Source: Blautia sp. An81
GTDB lineage: Bacteria > Bacillota > Clostridia > Lachnospirales > Lachnospiraceae
Direction: 5' to 3'
Length of the DNA stretch: 64,000 nucleotides
Assembly (NCBI RefSeq): GCF_002161285.1
Contig: NZ_NFHH01000003.1
Location: forward strand, 62,001 to 126,000
In this document: positions 52,593-62,447 of the stretch, piece after piece
Position numbering within the stretch: position 1 is the first letter of the stretch
Layout: the number at the start of each line of letters is the position of its first letter
Program-made: the position numbers and the translations under genes
The notes under the pieces: generated by a model
What the model was told of the DNA's origin: nothing
Database searches by the model: none
Seen by the model: only the letters and a program-made list of their open reading frames with translations

Positions 52593-53114
52593 ATGATGAA
52601 TGCAGCTATGGAAAATATTCTTACAAGAAGAAGTGTCAGAGCCTTTGAGGAGAAGGAAATCCCCAGAGAAGAACTGGAGCAGATTGCAAAAGCTGCGATC
52701 TATGCGCCAAGTGGACAGAACAAACAAACCTGGAAGATAACTGTAGTTACAGACCGGACTAAGATCCAGGCACTGGCAAAGGCTGTAGGAGAAAAACTGG
52801 GAAGAGAGGGGTATGATATGTACAGTCCGCAAGTCCTGGTAATCCCTTCCAATGACAGAGATAATCACCACTCTCAGGATGATAATGCCTGTGCTATGGA
52901 AAACATTATGCTGGCGGCCCATTCCTTCGGAATTGGTTCTGTTTGGATCAATCAGGTAAGAGATGTCTGCGACGTCCAGGAAGTGAGAGCTATTTTGAGA
53001 GGCTGGGAGATCCCGGACAATCATGTGATATTTGGAATCGCTGCCCTGGGATATGCGAAGACTCCTGTTACTCAGAATCCTGAGAAAAAAGGGCAGATAC
53101 ATTTTGTGGATTAA
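52593..53114 (+). CDS. Nitroreductase-family protein
   Basis: The 173-residue protein has the FMN-binding opening ILTRRSVRAFEEKEIPREEL with YAPSGQNKQTWKITVV, and the dimer segment NACAMENIMLAAHSFGIGSV. Nitroreductases transfer electrons from NAD(P)H through FMN to varied acceptors. TAGGAGG precedes the ATG. The next gene follows 13 bases later. Confidence 0.92.
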   Translation: MMNAAMENILTRRSVRAFEEKEIPREELEQIAKAAIYAPSGQNKQTWKITVVTDRTKIQALAKAVGEKLGREGYDMYSPQVLVIPSNDRDNHHSQDDNACAMENIMLAAHSFGIGSVWINQVRDVCDVQEVRAILRGWEIPDNHVIFGIAALGYAKTPVTQNPEKKGQIHFVD

Positions 53115-53127
53115 GGATAGAAACAAG

Positions 53128-53877
53128 ATGAAACCAATCATAATGGACTTTTCCGGCATCTACCGGGAAGAAAATTTTTTGAAAGAGGAAGAGGCTTTGT
53201 GGCTGGATTTTCGAAAGCTTCAGGGAGTAAACTGTTACTGTACCCAGGAGGCGGAGGATGAGATTAAAGAAAAGATTTACAGTCTGCCCTTTCAGGGAAT
53301 CCATTTTCTGGATTCCGGCAATTATCATTACCTTACAAAATTCTGGCTGGAGAAAATCCAGAAGCCTTTTTCCCTTCTGGTATTCGACAATCATACAGAT
53401 ATGCAGGAGGCAGCCTTTTTCGGGCTGCTTTCCTGCGGCAGCTGGGCTGGAGAGGTCCTGGAAAGCCATACATTCCTTTCCAGTATGTGTGTAGCAGGCC
53501 CTCCTGAAAAAGCCTTTGAAGAATATCATGGCCCAGGCAGGGAGAAACTGACCTGCATCAGCAGGGAAGAACTGTCGATAAAGGGAGAAAATCTCTTTCT
53601 GGAATTTCTGGAGACAAATAGAGACGTGCCTTTGTACATCTCTATAGATAAAGATGTTTTAAGAGAAGAGGATGCCAGGACCAACTGGGACCAGGGAGTG
53701 CTTTCTCTGGAACAACTTTTAAAATGGCTGGAACTGGCCTTTAAAAAAAGGAAAATCTTGGGAGTAGATATCTGTGGAGAAAATCCTCCGGATACAGCCA
53801 GGCCTCTTTCAGGAGAAGAGCTGAAGATTAATTCCCGGACAAACAGAGAACTGTTATCCTTTTTAAAAAATAAATAA
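53128..53877 (+). CDS. Arginase/ureohydrolase-fold protein
   Basis: The 249-residue protein keeps the metal motifs of ureohydrolases: FDNHTDMQ in place of the usual DAHxD, and SIDKDVLREED for SxDxDxxD. HFLDSGNYHYLTKF stands where the first metal His is expected. The family includes arginase and agmatinase. The substrate is unknown, and the motif changes place it among divergent members. The ATG at 53128 is chosen because homology begins with MKPIIMDFSGIYR. Confidence 0.8.
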   Translation: MKPIIMDFSGIYREENFLKEEEALWLDFRKLQGVNCYCTQEAEDEIKEKIYSLPFQGIHFLDSGNYHYLTKFWLEKIQKPFSLLVFDNHTDMQEAAFFGLLSCGSWAGEVLESHTFLSSMCVAGPPEKAFEEYHGPGREKLTCISREELSIKGENLFLEFLETNRDVPLYISIDKDVLREEDARTNWDQGVLSLEQLLKWLELAFKKRKILGVDICGENPPDTARPLSGEELKINSRTNRELLSFLKNK

Positions 53878-53892
53878 AAAAGCAAGTTATAC

Positions 53893-53922
53893 TTGACTAA
53901 TTTAATCTAGATTCGTTATAAT
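53893..53922 (+). promoter_or_regulatory. Promoter of the CODH-like cluster
   Basis: TTGACT (53893-53898) and TATAAT (53917-53922) are 18 bases apart. TAGGAGG precedes the ATG at 53961. Confidence 0.7.
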
Positions 53923-53960: not shown

Positions 53961-55844
53961 ATGAACCAGTGTTATGGATGCAATACCTGTGCCAGTGCGG
54001 ACAAGCCTTTGGAGGGATTTATCCGCAGCCTTCCCATGGAGACTTCTCATCACAGAGTAGAAGGACAGAGCACCAAATGCGGCTTCGGCCTTCAGGGTGT
54101 GTGCTGCCGTCTCTGCGCTAACGGCCCATGCCGGATCACACCAAAAGCTCCCAGAGGAATCTGCGGTGCTACTGCAGATGTTATCGTGGCAAGAAACTTC
54201 CTGCGGGCAGTTGCCAGCGGTTCCGGCTGCTATATCCACATTGTGGAGAATACAGCTCTGAACGTGAAGAAAACAGCAGAGATCAAGGGAGAGATCAAAG
54301 GTGAAAAATCCCTGGCAAAACTGGCAGAGATTTTTGGCGTACAGGGAACCGACAAGTGGGATACTGCAAAACAGGTAGCCCAGATGGTCCTGGACGATCT
54401 GTATAAACCGGAATACGAAAAAATGGAACTGGTGGAAAAAATGGCTTACGGCCCCAGATTTAAGAGATGGCAGGAACTGAATATCCTTCCCGGAGGAGCC
54501 AAAGGCGAAGTGTTCCATGGCGTGGTGAAATGTTCCACAAACCTGAATTCTGACCCTGTAGATATGTATACAGACTGCCTGAAACTGGGTATTTCCACAG
54601 GTATCTACGGACTGACACTGACAAACCTGCTGAACGACGTACTTTTAGGAGAACCGGAACTTCGCATGGCACCGGTAGGCCTTCGTGTGATTGACCCAGA
54701 TTATATCAACATTATGATCACAGGACATCAGCACACGATTTTCGTAGATCTTCAGGAGAGACTTACCTCCAAAGAAGCTGTTGCAAAAGCTCAGGCAGCA
54801 GGAGCCAAAGGCTTTAAGCTGGTTGGCTGTACTTGCGTGGGACAGGATCTTCAGCTTAGAGGCGCTCATTATACAGAAGTATTTGACGGCCATGCAGGAA
54901 ACAACTACACCAGTGAAGCTGTTCTTGCCACAGGCGGCATTGACGCTGTTCTTTCTGAGTTTAACTGTACTCTTCCAGGCATTGAGCCTATCTGTGATGA
55001 ACTGATGATCAAACAGATCTGTCTGGATGATGTAGCAAAGAAGGCCAATGCAGAGCTGAAACCTTTCAAATTTGAAGAGAGAGAAAAACAGAGCGAAGAG
55101 ATTATTGACGAGATCGTAGAAGCTTATAAAGCGAGAAGAGGCAAAGTAACCATGAATCTTCAGCCGGAACATGGAAACGACCACACTCTTACCGGTGTTT
55201 CCGAAGGTTCCTTAAAGGAATTCCTGGGAGGAAACTGGAAACCTCTTATCGACCTTATCGTATCCGGAGATATTAAAGGTGTTGCCGGCGTGGTAGGATG
55301 CTCCAACCTGACAGCAGGGGGCCATGACGTTCTTACAGTAGACCTGGTAAAAGAACTGATCTCCAGAGACATTATCGTTCTCACAGCAGGATGTTCTTCA
55401 GGGGGAATCGAAAACTGCGGTCTGATGACGCCGGAAGCAGCAAAACTGGCAGGACCAAAGCTCCGTGCAGTCTGCGAAAAACTGAATATTCCTCCAGTGC
55501 TGAACTTTGGTCCATGTCTGGCTATCGGACGTCTGGAAATCGTTGCCACAGAGCTGGCAGAAGCTCTGGGAATCGATATTCCTCAGCTTCCGCTGGTACT
55601 TTCTGCCGCACAGTGGCTGGAAGAGCAGGCTCTGGCAGACGGATGCTTCGGCCTGGCCCTGGGACTGCCCCTTCATTTAGGACTGCCGCCTTTCGTTACA
55701 GGAAGCGATCTGGCAGTGAAACTTCTTACGGAAGATATGAAGAGCCTTACCGGCGGACAGGTGATCATTAACCCGGACGCTAAGGCAAGTGCAGATATCC
55801 TGGAAAAGATCATTGAGGAGAAACGTGCAGGTTTAAATATTTAA
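53961..55844 (+). CDS. Divergent anaerobic carbon-monoxide dehydrogenase catalytic-subunit homologue (CooS-like)
   Basis: The 627-residue protein aligns over its length with Ni-Fe CO dehydrogenase. The D-cluster Cys pair (C40, C48) and B-cluster cysteines (C49, C52, C57, C68) are present. So are the C-cluster ligands His256, Cys292, Cys336, Cys447, Cys478 and Cys519, counterparts of His261, Cys295, 333, 446, 476 and 526 in Carboxydothermus CODH-II. By recalled alignment the catalytic Lys563 is Gln556, and the channel histidines 93, 96, 99 and 102 are Tyr91, Ile94, Asn97 and Leu100. An extra CxxCxxC (C4, C7, C10) starts the protein. A metal cluster is expected, but CO oxidation is uncertain. 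It leads a three-gene electron-transfer operon. Confidence 0.88.
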   Translation: MNQCYGCNTCASADKPLEGFIRSLPMETSHHRVEGQSTKCGFGLQGVCCRLCANGPCRITPKAPRGICGATADVIVARNFLRAVASGSGCYIHIVENTALNVKKTAEIKGEIKGEKSLAKLAEIFGVQGTDKWDTAKQVAQMVLDDLYKPEYEKMELVEKMAYGPRFKRWQELNILPGGAKGEVFHGVVKCSTNLNSDPVDMYTDCLKLGISTGIYGLTLTNLLNDVLLGEPELRMAPVGLRVIDPDYINIMITGHQHTIFVDLQERLTSKEAVAKAQAAGAKGFKLVGCTCVGQDLQLRGAHYTEVFDGHAGNNYTSEAVLATGGIDAVLSEFNCTLPGIEPICDELMIKQICLDDVAKKANAELKPFKFEEREKQSEEIIDEIVEAYKARRGKVTMNLQPEHGNDHTLTGVSEGSLKEFLGGNWKPLIDLIVSGDIKGVAGVVGCSNLTAGGHDVLTVDLVKELISRDIIVLTAGCSSGGIENCGLMTPEAAKLAGPKLRAVCEKLNIPPVLNFGPCLAIGRLEIVATELAEALGIDIPQLPLVLSAAQWLEEQALADGCFGLALGLPLHLGLPPFVTGSDLAVKLLTEDMKSLTGGQVIINPDAKASADILEKIIEEKRAGLNI

Positions 55845-55860: not shown

Positions 55861-56307
55861 ATGAAGAGAATAATGATAGACGCCTCGAAATGCGACGGCT
55901 GCAAGAGCTGCTCCGTGGCATGTATGCAGGCCCACAGAAAAGATGAAGGCGATGTCTATACACTGGATCTCACAGACATTGCCAATGAGACCAGGAATTT
56001 TATCTATAAAAATCCTGATGGAAGTTATACTCCGGTGTTCTGCAGACACTGTGACCAGCCGGAGTGTGTCATGTCCTGTATGAGCGGCGCTCTTGCCAAA
56101 GACCCGGAAACAGGCCATGTACAGTACGATGAGAAGAAGTGCGGTTCCTGCTTTATGTGCGTGATGAACTGTCCTTACGGCGTACTGAAACCTGATGACA
56201 GCACCCGCAGCAAGGTGATCAAATGTGATTTCTGCATTGACAAGGGAGAAGATCCCAGCTGCGTAAAGGCCTGTCCAAAGCAGGCTATCTGGGTTGAGGA
56301 GGTGTAG
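55861..56307 (+). CDS. Four-cluster [4Fe-4S] ferredoxin (CooF/HycB-like)
   Basis: The 148-residue protein has four cysteine groups: CDGCKSCSVACMQAH, CRHCDQPECVMSC, CGSCFMCVMNCPYG and CDFCIDKG...CVKACPKQA. This is the electron-wiring subunit type found with CODH, hydrogenases and molybdopterin enzymes. It lies 16 bases after the CODH-like gene and 2 bases before the flavoprotein gene. It most likely carries electrons between them. Confidence 0.92.
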   Translation: MKRIMIDASKCDGCKSCSVACMQAHRKDEGDVYTLDLTDIANETRNFIYKNPDGSYTPVFCRHCDQPECVMSCMSGALAKDPETGHVQYDEKKCGSCFMCVMNCPYGVLKPDDSTRSKVIKCDFCIDKGEDPSCVKACPKQAIWVEEV

Positions 56308-56309
56308 AG

Positions 56310-57548
56310 ATGGAATATGTGATCTTAGGAGCAGGAGCAGCAGGCATTACTGCTGCAAAGACTATCCGGAAAGCAGACAAAAATGGAAAGATTACGGTGA
56401 TCTCTACAGATACTCAGGTACATTCCAGATGTATGCTCCACAAATATCTGAGCCATGAAAGAGATGCTGCAGGGATCAGCTTTGTGGATCCGGACTTTTT
56501 CGAGAAAAATCAGTTCACCTGGCTGCAGGGAAAAACCGTAAACCGCCTGGATACCCAGGGGAAAAAGGTTTATACCGACCAGGGAGATGAAGTAAGCTAT
56601 GACCGTCTTCTCATTGCCACAGGAGCAGAGAGCTTTATCCCACCGGTGGGAAATTTAAGAGAAGCTGAAAATGTTTTCGGACTCCGTCATTTAAGAGACG
56701 CCCAGGCTATTGATGAACTGGCAAAAAATGCTGAGAACATTGTGATCATCGGTTCCGGTCTGGTTGGCCTGGATGCAGCCTATGGTCTGATGGAGACTGG
56801 AAAGAAAGTATCCATTGTAGAGATGGCAGATCAGATCCTGCCCGTACAGCTTGATAAGACGGCGGCTTTTGAATATCAGAAACACTTTGAAGAAGCAGGA
56901 GCCCGGTTCTATCTGGGAAGAAAGGCTGCGGACACCATTATGGGAGAAGATAAGAACATTCATGAGATTGTCCTGGATAATGGAGAAAAGCTGGCCTGTG
57001 ACCTGATCATTGTGGCTGCCGGCGTCCGCTCTGCAGTTGCAGGAATGGAAGGAGAAGGGATCGTCATTGACCGTGGAATTAAGGTAGACGATTATCTTCA
57101 GACAGGAGCCGAAGGAGTATATGCGGCAGGTGATGTAACCGGCCTTTCCGGTATCTGGCCAAACGCTCAGAAGCAGGGAGAAACGGCGGCTCTGAATATG
57201 TGCGGTTCTCATGTAGAATACACAGACCGTTATGCCATTAAGAATACCATTAACTTCTTCGGACTGGTTTCTATGTGTGTAGGTGTGATCCTTCCTCAGG
57301 AGGGCGATGTGGTCATTGCCAGAGAGGATTCCAGAAACTACAAACGTGTAGTCCTTCGGGATGGAAAGGTAGTTGGCGTTCTTCTCCAGGGAGATATTTC
57401 CCACGGCGGAATCTGGCAGTATCTGATCAAAAATCAGATTTCCATATCCGGGATCCAGAAAGATATCTTTGACCTGAACTTCGGAGATTTCTATGGTATT
57501 AAGGACAATGGAGAATACCAGTGGAGAATGAAAGCCATAAGCAGATAA
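56310..57548 (+). CDS. FAD-dependent NAD(P)H oxidoreductase of the CODH cluster
   Basis: The 412-residue flavoprotein has the FAD dinucleotide loop EYVILGAGAAGITAAKTIRK, the NAD(P) loop IVIIGSGLVGLDAAYGLMET, and the second FAD motif EGVYAAGDVTGL. The C-terminal dimer domain is like that of nitrite-reductase or rubredoxin-reductase types. No redox CxxxxC pair is present. CODH, CooF and this flavoprotein recur as a three-gene set in clostridia, where they link the CODH to pyridine nucleotides. Confidence 0.92.
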   Translation: MEYVILGAGAAGITAAKTIRKADKNGKITVISTDTQVHSRCMLHKYLSHERDAAGISFVDPDFFEKNQFTWLQGKTVNRLDTQGKKVYTDQGDEVSYDRLLIATGAESFIPPVGNLREAENVFGLRHLRDAQAIDELAKNAENIVIIGSGLVGLDAAYGLMETGKKVSIVEMADQILPVQLDKTAAFEYQKHFEEAGARFYLGRKAADTIMGEDKNIHEIVLDNGEKLACDLIIVAAGVRSAVAGMEGEGIVIDRGIKVDDYLQTGAEGVYAAGDVTGLSGIWPNAQKQGETAALNMCGSHVEYTDRYAIKNTINFFGLVSMCVGVILPQEGDVVIAREDSRNYKRVVLRDGKVVGVLLQGDISHGGIWQYLIKNQISISGIQKDIFDLNFGDFYGIKDNGEYQWRMKAISR

Positions 57549-57622: not shown

Positions 57623-57911
57623 CGTAAATGAGAAAAGCGAAGATGGGAACAAGTAGTATGCAGAGAGACCTACAGAAAGGAGCCGGCAGATGAGAGGCCC
57701 AGGAGAACTGCAGTGCGAATACCTCCCGGAGCTTCACACCGAAAAGCAATGAGTAGGCTGTGACGTTTTGGTGTACGTTACAACACTTTGAGTATCGCGT
57801 AAGCTGTACTTGCAGAGGCAGGCAGTGTGAGCTGTCTGTGAATAAAGGTGGTAACACGGGAATCTATAAGCTCTCGTCCTTTTGTAACAGGAAGGACGGG
57901 GGCTTTTTATC
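57623..57911 (+). promoter_or_regulatory. T-box leader (tyrosine) of tyrS
   Basis: The T-box AAAGGTGGTAACACGGGAA begins at about 57844, followed by a terminator of CGTCCTT/AAGGACG (57874-57899) and GGGGCTTTTT. A TAC in GCGAATACC (57720-57722) is a good tyrosine specifier candidate. Uncharged tRNA-Tyr would allow read-through into tyrS. The downstream leader is unusually long because of the nested repeat at 57921-58180. Confidence 0.9.
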
Positions 57912-57920
57912 ATTGTGGGG

Positions 57921-58180
57921 ACTGCCCTGTAAAAGTTTTGCAGAATATTTACTATGTTTTCTTGAACAGTCTGGGGAGCTATCGCATTAAACAAAATCGA
58001 GAATATTTATGTATTTTATTGCTCAGTCTGCGCCGCTTTGAGCCTGCAGTCTCAAAGCTGTGCTCGACAAATTCGCATAAAATACATAAATATTCCTGAC
58101 ACATGTTTAATGCGACAACTCCTGCTCGACAAATTTGCAGAAAACATAGCAAATATTCTCTGTAATTCTTCGAGGGCAGT
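57921..58180. repeat. Outer palindromic element interrupted by copy B
   Basis: ACTGCCCT (57921-57928) and AGGGCAGT (58173-58180) form the ends. Inside, CAGAATATTTACTATGTTTT pairs with AAAACATAGCAAATATTCTC. The left arm reaches CAGTCTG and the right resumes at TGCTCGACAAATT, matching the core of the same element family. A complete second copy (57975-58122) sits between them. Confidence 0.75.
57975..58122. repeat. Dispersed palindromic element, copy B (nested)
   Basis: The ends GGAGCTATCGCATTAAAC and GTTTAATGCGACAACTCC pair at 16 of 18 positions. The inner arms GAGAATATTTATGTATTTT and AAAATACATAAATATTCCTG also pair, with CTTTGAG/CTCAAAG in the centre. It lies in the leader of tyrS, after the T-box terminator. 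Confidence 0.85.
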
Positions 58181-58308
58181 TGAAAATGATAAAAGTTTGT
58201 GAGCTGTTTATCGGACAGACGATAGCGTCCTTCAGAAAAAAGCAAAAACTGTGGCAGCTGTTATTTGTATACTGCCATGGTCAAGTAAAGAGAAAAGGAG
58301 AATCTAAG

Positions 58309-59532
58309 ATGAAAATTTATGAGGAATTGCAGGCCAGGGGGCTGATCGCACAGGTGACGGATGAAGAAGAGATCAGGGAATTGATCAACAACGGAAAGGC
58401 AACTTTTTATATCGGGTTTGACCCTACGGCGGACAGCCTTCATGTAGGGCATTTTATGGCTCTGTGTCTGATGAAGCGCCTTCAGATGGCGGGAAATAAG
58501 CCTATCGCTCTGATCGGCGGAGGCACCGGTTATATCGGGGATCCTTCCGGAAGATCGGATATGCGTTCTATGATGACAGCGGAGACTATTCAGCACAACT
58601 GTGACTGCTTTAAGAAACAGATGGAAAGATTCATTGATTTTTCTGATGGAAAAGCCCTTATGGTAAATAATGCAGAGTGGCTGTTAGATCTGAATTACAT
58701 TGACTTTTTAAGAGAGGTAGGCCCTCACTTCTCGGTAAACCGTATGCTTACTGCAGAATGCTATAAGCAGCGTATGGAGAAGGGCCTGAGCTTTCTGGAG
58801 TTTAACTATATGATCATGCAGAGCTATGATTTCTACATGCTGTATCAGAAATATGGCTGCAATATGCAGTTCGGCGGAGATGACCAGTGGAGCAATATGC
58901 TGGGCGGTACAGAACTGATCCGGAGAAAGCTGGGCAAGAACGCCTGTGCCATGACCATTACCCTTCTTCTGAATTCTGAGGGCAAAAAGATGGGCAAGAC
59001 CCAGTCCGGGGCTGTATGGCTGGATCCAAACAAGACCTCACCTTTTGACTTCTACCAGTACTGGAGAAATGTGGCAGACGCCGATGTGCTGAAATGTATC
59101 CGTATGCTGACCTTCCTTCCCCTGGAACAGATCGATGAGATGGATAAATGGGAAGGCAGCCAGTTAAATACGGCAAAAGAAATCCTGGCTTATGAGCTTA
59201 CAGAACTGGTTCACGGAACCGAAGAAGCCCAGAAGGCCCAGGAAGCGGCAAAGGCCCTGTTTACCAGTGGAAATGCAGCAAATATGCCTTCTGCCCAGAT
59301 TGAGGAGTCTGAGCTTACAGATGGAAACATCGACTTGATCTCCCTTCTGCACAAAAGCGGACTGGCTAATTCCCGTTCAGAGGCCAGAAGAGCTATTGAA
59401 CAGGGAGGCGTAGCCATTGACGGAGAAAAAATTACAGATATCAAATATCTGGTTCCAGGAGAAAAACTTCAGGGAGAGGGAATTGTCCTGAAAAAAGGAA
59501 AGAAGAACTTCCGGAAGATTACATTAAAATAA
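58309..59532 (+). CDS. tyrS: Tyrosyl-tRNA synthetase
   Basis: The 407-residue class I enzyme opens [20 protein letters not shown]. The HIGH-type motif is [11 protein letters not shown], the KMSKS-type motif is [10 protein letters not shown], and a C-terminal S4 RNA-binding domain carries [20 protein letters not shown]. It charges tRNA-Tyr. The start at 58309, after AAAAGGAG, is preferred; the in-frame extension to 58180 begins in the repeat region. It is controlled by the T-box leader about 400 bases upstream. Confidence 0.96.
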
Positions 59533-60732: not shown

Positions 60733-61060
60733 AATTAGAACTTTAAACCGTTGAACAAGAGTAGTAGGTAAAAATATTTGTTTACAGAGAGTTCCGGGGG
60801 GTGAGATCGGAACAGCAAGAGTTTTTATTGAATGGACTTGTGAGGGCAGCTCGAAATTTCTTGGGAAAGAGTAGACGCTGACGGGTGTACCGATCCGTTA
60901 TCAGCAGGGAGTGTATGTCAGTACATGTAAAGAGTGGCCAGGAGTCTTTTTGTTTTATCAATAGAAGAAAAGAACAACTGGCAATTTGGGTGGTACCGCA
61001 GGAGATGATTCCCCTGTCCCAATAGAAGCAGAGACGCTTCTGTTGGGACAGGGGTTTTTT
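60733..61060 (+). promoter_or_regulatory. T-box leader (tryptophan) of the trp operon
   Basis: The T-box TTTGGGTGGTACCGCAG lies at about 60985-61001. A very strong terminator follows (CCCCTGTCCCAA pairing with TTGGGACAGGGG, an inner AGAAGC/GCTTCT stem, then TTTTTT, 61011-61060). TGG at 60833-60835, within GAATGGACT, is a clear tryptophan specifier candidate. Uncharged tRNA-Trp would open transcription into trpE and trpGD. Confidence 0.92.
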
Positions 61061-61147: not shown

Positions 61148-62447
61148 ATGCTGAAACCTGATTATGCAACAGCCAGGAAACTGGCAAAGAACTATTCTGT
61201 GATTCCTGTATGCCGGGAAATCCTGGGAGACAGTACCACCCCTATTGCAGTACTGAAAAGACTGGCGGCAAAAAGCAGCCGGTATTTCCTTCTGGAAAGT
61301 GTAGAAGGAGGAGAAAAGTGGGGCCGGTATTCCTTTCTGGGATGTGATCCAAAGCGGAGGATTTTCTGTCAGAAGGGAAAGGTAAAGATCCAGGGACAAG
61401 AAGGAGCATACGAAACAACTGAGAAGCCTCTGAAAGCAGTGAGAAAACTGATGAAAAAATATAAGGCGCCGGTACTTCCGGATTATCCCCCTTTTACCGG
61501 AGGACTGGTGGGATACTTTTCTTATTCTGTCATTGGTCTGGCGGAACCGGTCCTCCATATAAAAAATGAGAAATTTCCGGATTTTGACCTTTTTCTTTTT
61601 GACAAGGTCATTGCCTATGATCATCTGAAACAGCGGCTCCTTTTTATGGTCAATATAAAAACCGATGATCTGGAAAAAAATTACCGGAAGGCAGAGGAGG
61701 AAATCGACAAGCTTCAGAAGCTTTTAGAAGAAGCTGAAGAAAAGCAGGAAGACTTAAGAGAGAAGATGGACTTCCAATCCTTCTCCCTATATGGTGTATT
61801 TTCACACAGAGGAGCTGGAACTGATGAGCACTTCACCGGAGACTCTTGTAAAGCTTCACAACGGAAAGGTGACCACCTTTCCTGTGGCGGGAAGCAGACC
61901 CAGAGGAAAGAATGAGGAAGAAGACAGAAGACTGGAAAAAGAACTTCTCCAGGACGAAAAAGAACTGTCCGAGCATAATATGCTGGTAGATCTGGGAAGA
62001 AATGACCTGGGAAAGATCTGCAGATTCGGAAGTGTGAAAGTGACAGAGTATATGGCTGTTCATAAGTATTCAAAGATTATGCATATCTGCTCTCAGGTAG
62101 AAGGTGTGATCCGGGAAGACAAAGATGCATTAGACGCTATCGAGGCGGTGCTTCCTGCAGGCACTTTGTCAGGAGCTCCTAAGATCCGGGCCTGCCAGAT
62201 CATAGAGGAGCTGGAAAAAGAGGAACGGGGCATTTACGGAGGCGCCCTGGGATATCTGGATTTTACAGGAAATATGGATACCTGCATTGCCATCCGCATG
62301 GCGGTGAAAAAAGATCAAAAGGTTTATGTCCAGGCAGGAGGCGGTATCGTGGCAGACAGTATTCCGGAGAAAGAATACGAAGAATCCGCCAATAAAGCGG
62401 CGGCTGTGATCCAGGCCATCATTCAGGCAGAGGAGGAAGGAATATGA
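61148..62447 (+). pseudogene. trpE: trpE (anthranilate synthase component I), broken by internal deletion and frameshift
   Basis: The N-terminal half is intact in one frame to about residue 206: RYFLLESVEGGEKWGRYSFL, GGLVGYFSYSVIGLAEPV, and a helical stretch ending EDLREKM. The C-terminal half continues from about 61770 in a different frame: TSNPSPYMVYFHTEELELMS, then VAGSRPRGKNEEE, LVDLGRNDLGKI and LPAGTLSGAPKIRACQ. The roughly 45-55 residues that should lie between, including the GDIFQVVLSQR-type segment, are missing. The first frame stops at 61917 after unrelated residues. As written no active TrpE can be made; a read or assembly error remains possible. GGAGG precedes the ATG at 61148. Confidence 0.85.

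Follow-up and report, generated by a model that had tools for sequence, protein, structure and literature searches.

A clade C carbon monoxide dehydrogenase homologue in Blautia sp. An81, its putative electron-transfer operon and a promoter site common to perR-rubrerythrin promoters of the genus

Clade C of the nickel carbon monoxide dehydrogenases (Ni-CODHs) was defined in Table 2 of Inoue et al. (2019) by a complete C-cluster together with replacement of the acid-base His by Tyr and of the Lys by Gln. According to the available text of the same paper, group C-1 shows a type II D-cluster and an N-terminal motif of two to four Cys, and groups C-1 and C-2 are associated with a FAD/NAD(P) oxidoreductase (FNOR), CooF (COG0437) and an NsrR/IscR-like regulator (PMC6344411). 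We analyzed a stretch of 64,000 nucleotides of Blautia sp. An81 (contig NZ_NFHH01000003.1, positions 62,001 to 126,000; from here on the window, whose numbering is used throughout), in which an open reading frame (ORF) of 627 amino acid residues (53961..55844, + strand) encodes a CODH catalytic subunit homologue of the clade C, group C-1 type. The combination of Tyr and Gln with a complete C-cluster, which the first-pass annotation of this gene had described unaware of the earlier definition, is therefore the already published signature of a known clade.

The ORF reached 760.2 bits with the TIGR01702 CO_DH_cata profile (cut-off 478) and its PF03063 match spans residues 47 to 608 (495 bits); the hybrid cluster protein (HCP) profile TIGR01703 gave 26.3 bits, below its cut-off of 360.8. 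Alignment confirmed that the window CODH keeps the six C-cluster ligands (His256 and Cys292, 336, 447, 478 and 519) and the D- and B-cluster Cys40, 48, 49, 52, 57 and 68, with a type II D-cluster (Cys40-x7-Cys48-Cys49) and an N-terminal motif formed by Cys4, 7 and 10, as in group C-1. At the positions of the catalytic His and Lys of clades E and F it shows Tyr91 and Gln556, as clade C does, and at the first C-cluster Cys, which is Glu in clade D-1 (CODH-V), it shows Cys292. Residues were surveyed at 225 loci, picked by similarity to the window CODH or by the patterns SA[PA]QWLEE and CCRLC[SAT]NGP, which gave 172 distinct proteins with a length of 450 residues or more. Classed by residues, these rows comprise 114 of clade C type, 17 of E/F type with His and Lys (the canonical rows), 17 of D-2/3/4 type, nine of D-1 type, five of B type and ten HCPs; one clade C row (L026) is truncated and lacks residue 91, and counts there are out of 113. 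The two patterns contributed 80 loci (the best 80 of 466), in which the Q-W-L-E-E or C-C-R-L-C stretch was partly selected, and some other sets of loci were chosen without a pattern.

An alignment and a clade tree had been proposed as a check in the first-pass annotation, and both place the window CODH in clade C. In a quick maximum-likelihood (ML) tree the 114 rows with Tyr/Gln are recovered as a single clade (support 100), including those of Clostridium ljungdahlii and Clostridioides difficile and one like that of Thermoanaerobacter kivui; the placement rests on such named clade C members. Clade D is the sister of clade C with a support of only 89, and the program warned of a possible long-branch join of two rows (L076 and L077). 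The CooS of C. ljungdahlii (L158), also of group C-1, shows 69.1% identity with the window CODH over 624 aligned positions and shares with it the complete C-cluster, the Tyr/Gln pair, the type II D-cluster, the N-terminal Cys motif and the CooF (COG0437) and FNOR neighbours. Altogether, it is nearly certain that the window protein is a Ni-CODH-family enzyme of clade C, group C-1 type.

Codons 91-94 of the window CODH (54231..54242, +) encode Tyr91, Ile92, His93 and Ile94, with His as the canonical residue at 91 and 94, and codons 554-556 (55620..55628, +) encode Glu-Glu-Gln in place of the canonical Ser-Glu-Lys. Gln556 aligns with the catalytic Lys, which is Lys in 17/17 canonical rows, and Tyr91 with a residue that is His in all 17. 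Across clade C, the ligand set HCCCCC was present in 114/114 rows, including Cys292 (54834..54836, +), which corresponds by alignment to the ligand position occupied by Glu295 in CODH-V. The same 114 rows all show Asn335, Glu554, Glu555, Gln556, Thr291 and Val293, and Tyr91 and His93 are found in 113/113. The segment at residues 289-296 reads GCTCVGQD, as previously annotated. The first-pass annotation had also described four channel histidines as replaced, and this stands for positions 91 and 94, each with His in 17/17 canonical rows; positions 97 and 100 mark the channel poorly, because His is found there in only 1/17 and 9/17 of those rows. A misalignment of the Lys and His positions was rejected, since the blocks around 91 and 556 are gap-free across the CODH rows aligned.

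His93 was also rejected as a substitute for the lost relay. It is present in 15/17 D-2/3/4-type and 9/9 D-1 rows, so that it does not specifically replace the lost Lys, and on the helix spanning residues 72-107 (H72-107) it would be expected from the model to face away from the Tyr91 side. That model, an AlphaFold2 (AF2) prediction of the window CODH from 44 clade C sequences, has a mean pLDDT of 88.9 and a pTM of 0.90. At residue 258, two positions after the ligand His256, His is found in 106/114 clade C rows (Gln in seven and Glu in one) and Pro in all 48 other CODH rows; His258 is a possible second-sphere residue.

A CODH in decay, with the Lys and His lost by degeneration and no function left, has the loss of these catalytic residues as its sole argument. 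The same invariant replacements recur in 113-114 rows across many families, a window-type CODH was found in 19/20 genomes of the genus with 91-100% identity, and the gene is preceded by a near-consensus promoter and a conserved operator-like site (see below). We consider decay very improbable, and on the counts given above for Tyr91, Gln556 and the ligands, decay or chance as the origin of the Tyr/Gln pattern was rejected.

The window CODH is the first gene of a three-gene operon. It is followed by a ferredoxin-like, CooF-like protein of 148 residues (55861..56307, +), whose 16 Cys form four 4-Cys motifs of HydN/DmsB type as for 4x[4Fe-4S], and by an FNOR of 412 residues (56310..57548, +) with Pyr_redox_2 and Rubredoxin_C domains, similar to NirB, PadH and NorW, both assigned by profile matches. 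Synteny was counted from 112 loci with flanks, four of which were of other clades, leaving 108 distinct clade C loci. On the basis of ORF calls, which were simple and left some genes hidden under antisense ORFs, ferredoxin is located at +1 in 72 of the 108 loci and FNOR at +1 or +2 in 77; by tblastn, which did not distinguish the two partners since one of the queries was a fusion protein, at least one of them lies just downstream in 85 loci. The other 23 loci have neither, and for four of these less than 750 bp of downstream sequence is available. In the available text of Bohm and Land such neighbours are given at 72% and 71% (PMC13056359). Furthermore, ferredoxin and FNOR are fused in one protein of 570-590 residues at five loci (L110, L112, L123, L153 and L164). 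Synteny and fusions point to an electron chain to NAD(P), in support of the earlier suggestion of NAD(P) coupling through the two neighbours.

Bohm and Land proposed for clades C and D a redox sensor or regulatory electron buffer without significant turnover, whose cluster state would tune redox balance; clade C genes, in the available text, co-occur with active CODHs and have electron-transfer and regulator neighbours (PMC13056359). This idea also agrees with 17 of the 108 loci (20 by ORF calls, minus one with a tblastn match and two without downstream sequence), where the CODH is accompanied by an Rrf2 gene and lacks both ferredoxin and FNOR just downstream. However, one or both partners follow the CODH in 85 loci and activity has been measured in the CooS of T. 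kivui (see below), and we regard a pure sensor as improbable.

Just upstream of the CODH operon lie a nitroreductase gene and an arginase-like ORF that overlap each other (52593-53877). These two genes were rejected as operon partners, as they are kept only in the nearest relatives and a promoter-like site lies between them and the CODH. Counting the window's own, the arginase-like gene is upstream in 8/19 loci of the genus and the nitroreductase in 7/19; in the 108 other clade C loci tblastn gave no arginase match and two distant nitroreductase matches.

The promoter-like site, TTGACT-18-TATAAT (11/12; 53893..53922, +), is one of the two best among 11 sites in the 5.8 kb scanned, where 7.0 were expected. 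A palindrome of 25 bp, ATACTTGACTAATTTAATCTAGATT (53889..53913, +), lies over its -35 and is common to the perR-rubrerythrin promoter in the genus; we call it IscR/Rrf2-type operator-like by comparison with the IscR type-1 consensus. Its core, ACTAWWWTAGT with at most one mismatch, was found upstream of the CODH in 29/109 regions (the 108 loci and the window), against a background of 4.2% for mononucleotide-shuffled sequence and 2.7% for random stretches. When the whole window genome (4.3 Mb) was searched with a longer site, three hits were obtained, at the CODH promoter (one mismatch), at the perR-rubrerythrin promoter (two) and at L228 (three, unexplained); the backwards control gave one hit. 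The first of these hits is no evidence, because the pattern was written after the window promoter had been seen; the perR-rubrerythrin promoter as the next best of the three is evidence, at the level of motif matching, for a putative shared site.

Among the genomes of the genus, the site was found with at most 5/25 mismatches in 19/19 CODH promoters and 17/18 perR promoters, and in no more than 0.1% of shuffles, with a 25-bp consensus drawn from the same promoters in which it was counted, part of which is the -35 hexamer, and with shuffles that were all mononucleotide. The exception among the perR promoters belongs to a paralogue (48% identical), and a rubrerythrin match was present in all 18 perR loci, three of which are incomplete at a contig end. 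Across 12 genomes from 11 genera, 14 hits were obtained with an 18-mer and 20 with its backwards control, which puts the number of hits at chance level; three hits lie before CODH, two before perR-rubrerythrin and one before a rubrerythrin gene (G133), and eight are unexplained. The site is shared by CODH and perR in G000 and G028, and by CODH and the rubrerythrin gene in G133. In this last genome, of another genus, the 18-mer with two mismatches immediately precedes a rubrerythrin gene that has 90% identity with the perR-linked one (L240, G133:C21), and the sequence stretch around it gave no perR match. The perR promoters of the genus (L266-L282) also show, downstream of the -10, a second inverted repeat of the type TAACAATTATTGTTA, separate from the shared palindrome, which is perhaps the PerR box itself.

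An Rrf2 gene lies upstream on the same strand in 52/108 clade C loci, as the adjacent ORF in 50, and 52/52 of these CODH-linked Rrf2 proteins show three invariant Cys. Three of them were scanned, and all pass the Rrf2 superfamily cut-off and none reaches those of IscR, NsrR or RirA. Unlike the C-1 and C-2 groups of Inoue et al., with their linked NsrR/IscR-like regulator gene, the window operon has no such gene adjoining it. The window genome contains six Rrf2-family matches, four of them above cut-off, and its unlinked Rrf2 L232 is up to 49% identical to the CODH-linked ones. The motif makes the operator-like palindrome a candidate Rrf2 target.

Expression of related operons has been described in clostridia. 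In C. difficile, cooS (CD0174), in the same three-gene operon, is listed in the available text among oxidative and nitrosative stress genes with a log2FC of 8.3 on overproduction of sigmaB (PMC7494833). An iron study of the same species states in its available text that coo formation is inhibited in the fur mutant, with negative table values for the three operon genes (PMC6311696), and induction by O2 in C. ljungdahlii and Clostridium acetobutylicum is reported by Inoue et al. in the text available (PMC6344411). The main text of two C. difficile PerR studies gave no match for cooS. The Rrf2 neighbours, the shared operator-like site, the sigmaB response and the O2 induction in C. ljungdahlii argue for stress control of the window operon.

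The measured relative is the CooS of T. kivui (TKV_c08080), for which we took L077/L115 by fit. The genome of L077 has two CODH genes, the first encoding 627 residues followed by a 177-residue FeS protein, and its CooS is 52.0% identical to that of Clostridium carboxidivorans over 619 positions (53% by another comparison); the available text of Jain et al. gives 68 and 19 kDa for CooS and the FeS protein and 53% for the same identity (PMC8683389). T. kivui CooS shares with the window CODH Tyr91, His93, Asn335, the Glu-Glu-Gln stretch, all ligands and an adjoining FeS protein, and differs in His at 94, Gln at 258, the lack of an adjoining FNOR and its position as first branch of the clade, with 54.4% identity over 621 positions. 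According to the same text, it showed 13.9 U/mg with CO and methyl viologen (CO:MV), 0.5 U/mg with CO and ferredoxin and a Km for CO of 5 uM, and AcsAB 213.9 and 111.5 U/mg, respectively (PMC8683389). A contamination with AcsAB (6.5%) is an unlikely source of the 13.9 U/mg, because about 7 U/mg with ferredoxin would then be expected and 0.5 was measured. In extracts of CO-grown cells, CO:MV activity fell from 178.6 to 14.9 U/mg on deletion of cooS (92% lost) and was 76.9 in the complemented strain, as far as this source is available (PMC8683389). Bohm and Land, in the available text, question the value of this enzyme as a model, since the strain employed had been adapted to CO (PMC13056359); with regard to this objection, the L077 sequence already carries Tyr/Gln.

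As T. kivui CooS oxidises CO with the same Tyr/Gln set, the missing Lys and His alone are no bar to CO chemistry. The first-pass annotation had suggested a different small substrate and had named CO oxidation at normal rates as the observation against it; CO oxidation has been measured in this Tyr/Gln relative, which, unlike the window CODH, keeps His94. By analogy, Ni at the site and CO/CO2 activity are tentatively predicted for the window CODH. Our single best guess, a tentative one, is a slow, stress-regulated CO/CO2-NAD(P) redox enzyme. In its favour, clade C keeps all six ligands including Cys292, and in CODH-II the C295A and C295E variants of this Cys were Ni-deficient (PMC9311411). The C-cluster-type site would exchange electrons with a small molecule, CO/CO2 being the most likely one, and turnover would be slow because protons would be transferred without the Lys and His normally used; a candidate for the missing acid-base group is Glu554, which is invariant and lies beside the cluster. 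Electrons would pass between clusters C, B and D, the ferredoxin, FNOR and NAD(P)(H), and oxygen, redox or Fe-S stress would induce the operon through an Fe-S regulator of Rrf2 type, which would also control perR-rubrerythrin in the genus. The enzyme may thereby serve, next to the separate CODH/ACS, as a valve of low flux that scavenges CO or relieves redox imbalance.

Several points weigh against this best guess. The window operon contains no CooC. In T. kivui grown on glucose, deletion of cooS had no effect on extract activity (50.6 and 53.8) according to the text available (PMC8683389). T. kivui CooS is itself an outlier of the clade, with His94, no adjoining FNOR and the first branch. Position 94 is His in 17/17 E/F, 17/17 D-2/3/4, 9/9 D-1 and 5/5 B-type rows, and in clade C it is Val or Ile in 111/113 rows, with His only in T. 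kivui CooS and its neighbour L076; these two branch first within clade C, in the tree with the long-branch warning. The window CODH and C. ljungdahlii L158 both show Ile, so that T. kivui CooS is an imperfect proxy for the window CODH. Clostridium autoethanogenum is a close relative of C. ljungdahlii. Its cooS1 is deduced, from Inoue et al., Bohm and Land and L158, to be of the FNOR-linked clade C type. With cooS1 and cooS2 intact, an acsA knockout of C. autoethanogenum showed no CO oxidation and released 2.03 mmol CO, and loss of cooS1 gave slower growth on CO and faster growth on H2/CO2, in the available text of that study (PMC4895105). The measured CO oxidiser is thus the one that keeps His94, a correlation from one biochemical and one genetic case.

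The last of these points concerns residues common to hybrid-cluster enzymes. Glu554 and Asn335 (54963..54965, +), present in every clade C row, are also found in D-2/3/4-type (17/17), D-1 (9/9) and HCP rows (10/10, in a distant alignment), in contrast to the E/F-type rows, which show Ser (16) or Ala (one) at 554 and Gln (17) at 335. By alignment they correspond to Glu556 of CooS-V (CODH-V of Carboxydothermus, clade D-1), an Fe ligand, and to its Asn337, which hydrogen-bonds the cluster water (PMC9311411). On this alignment, clade C combines the CODH cysteines with two hybrid-cluster residues, a combination that is new here; no statement of it was found in the available passages or by a single search aimed at it, and Figure 2 of Inoue et al. 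marks a Glu at this place and may show it. In a Foldseek search with the AF2 model the top PDB match was CooS-V (TM 0.93), followed by Desulfovibrio vulgaris and other CODHs at about 0.90. The likeness to CODH-V mentioned in the first-pass annotation is only partly right: CooS-V shares with the window CODH the Tyr (91), the Asn (335) and the Glu (554), but it carries Glu for Cys292 and keeps the Lys, and the D-1 rows show His at 94 and Ser for Cys48 (9/9). With Cys292 retained, a hybrid-cluster enzyme of the CODH-V type as such was rejected.

These residues lead to a possible, somewhat doubtful alternative in which the Val/Ile94 majority has a CODH/HCP chimera site and works as an NAD(P)H-fed reductase, electrons passing from NAD(P)H through FNOR and ferredoxin to a cluster that would reduce oxygen, peroxide or nitrogen-oxide species, as in HCP-HCR. 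HCP is paired with its reductase HCR, and in Escherichia coli it is under Rrf2/NsrR-type control. The HCP system thus resembles that of the window in the Asn and Glu at the cluster, the NADH-linked partner and the regulation, and differs in belonging to a separate family with another set of C-cluster Cys. The shared Glu and Asn, the loss of His94, the stress regulation, an FNOR of NirB/NorW/rubredoxin-reductase type, the Foldseek match and the lack of CO oxidation in vivo with cooS1 intact favour the reductase. Against it stand Cys292, retained in 114/114 rows, and the T. kivui enzyme, an active CODH with the same Glu/Asn/Gln/Tyr set. The role of HCP is also already filled, because the window genome has a true HCP (709.7 bits, C82:38792-40369). 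In CooS-V itself NO reduction was undetectable and hydroxylamine reduction very slow (PMC9311411). A division of clade C between both activities appears rather unlikely to us; it would leave CO oxidation to the basal T. kivui lineage with His94 and make the Val/Ile94 lineage, including the window CODH, an NAD(P)H-linked stress reductase controlled by Rrf2 together with perR-rubrerythrin; this CODH/HCP chimera would have new chemistry.

The window genome has two further CODHs, both canonical. One belongs to the separate CODH/ACS-type operon, which is flanked by two CooC-like ATPases (L117; named by eye). The second, with His, Lys and complete ligands, has as neighbours a regulator of LysR type and a permease-like gene, named by eye (L116, G000:C14:18500-38000), and no acs genes were seen by eye among its eight neighbours on either side. 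Downstream of the CODH operon, the window contains two T-box leaders (RF00230), with the genes that follow named by eye: one at 57631-57884 (97.8 bits), upstream of a tyrosyl-tRNA synthetase-like ORF (58180-59532), and the other at 60742-61024 (113.7 bits), upstream of a trpE-like (anthranilate synthase) ORF from 61148. The trpE-like coding sequence (61148-62447) is divided between an ORF at 61148-61915 and another, in a different frame, that overlaps it (61791-62447), as a frameshift would produce.

Genes of the clade C type are common, with 466 pattern-selected relatives in one genome collection besides their presence in nearly all genomes of this gut genus, and in the available text of Bohm and Land no conclusion on the activity of the clade is yet possible (PMC13056359). 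To this the present analysis adds the His94 split, the Glu and Asn common to hybrid-cluster enzymes and the operator-like site common to perR-rubrerythrin. The split offers a direct test of the role of the proton relay and of the idea that a single residue divides CO oxidisers from stress enzymes. Should CO not be oxidised by this enzyme, the number of human gut CO utilisers counted from such genes would be too high.

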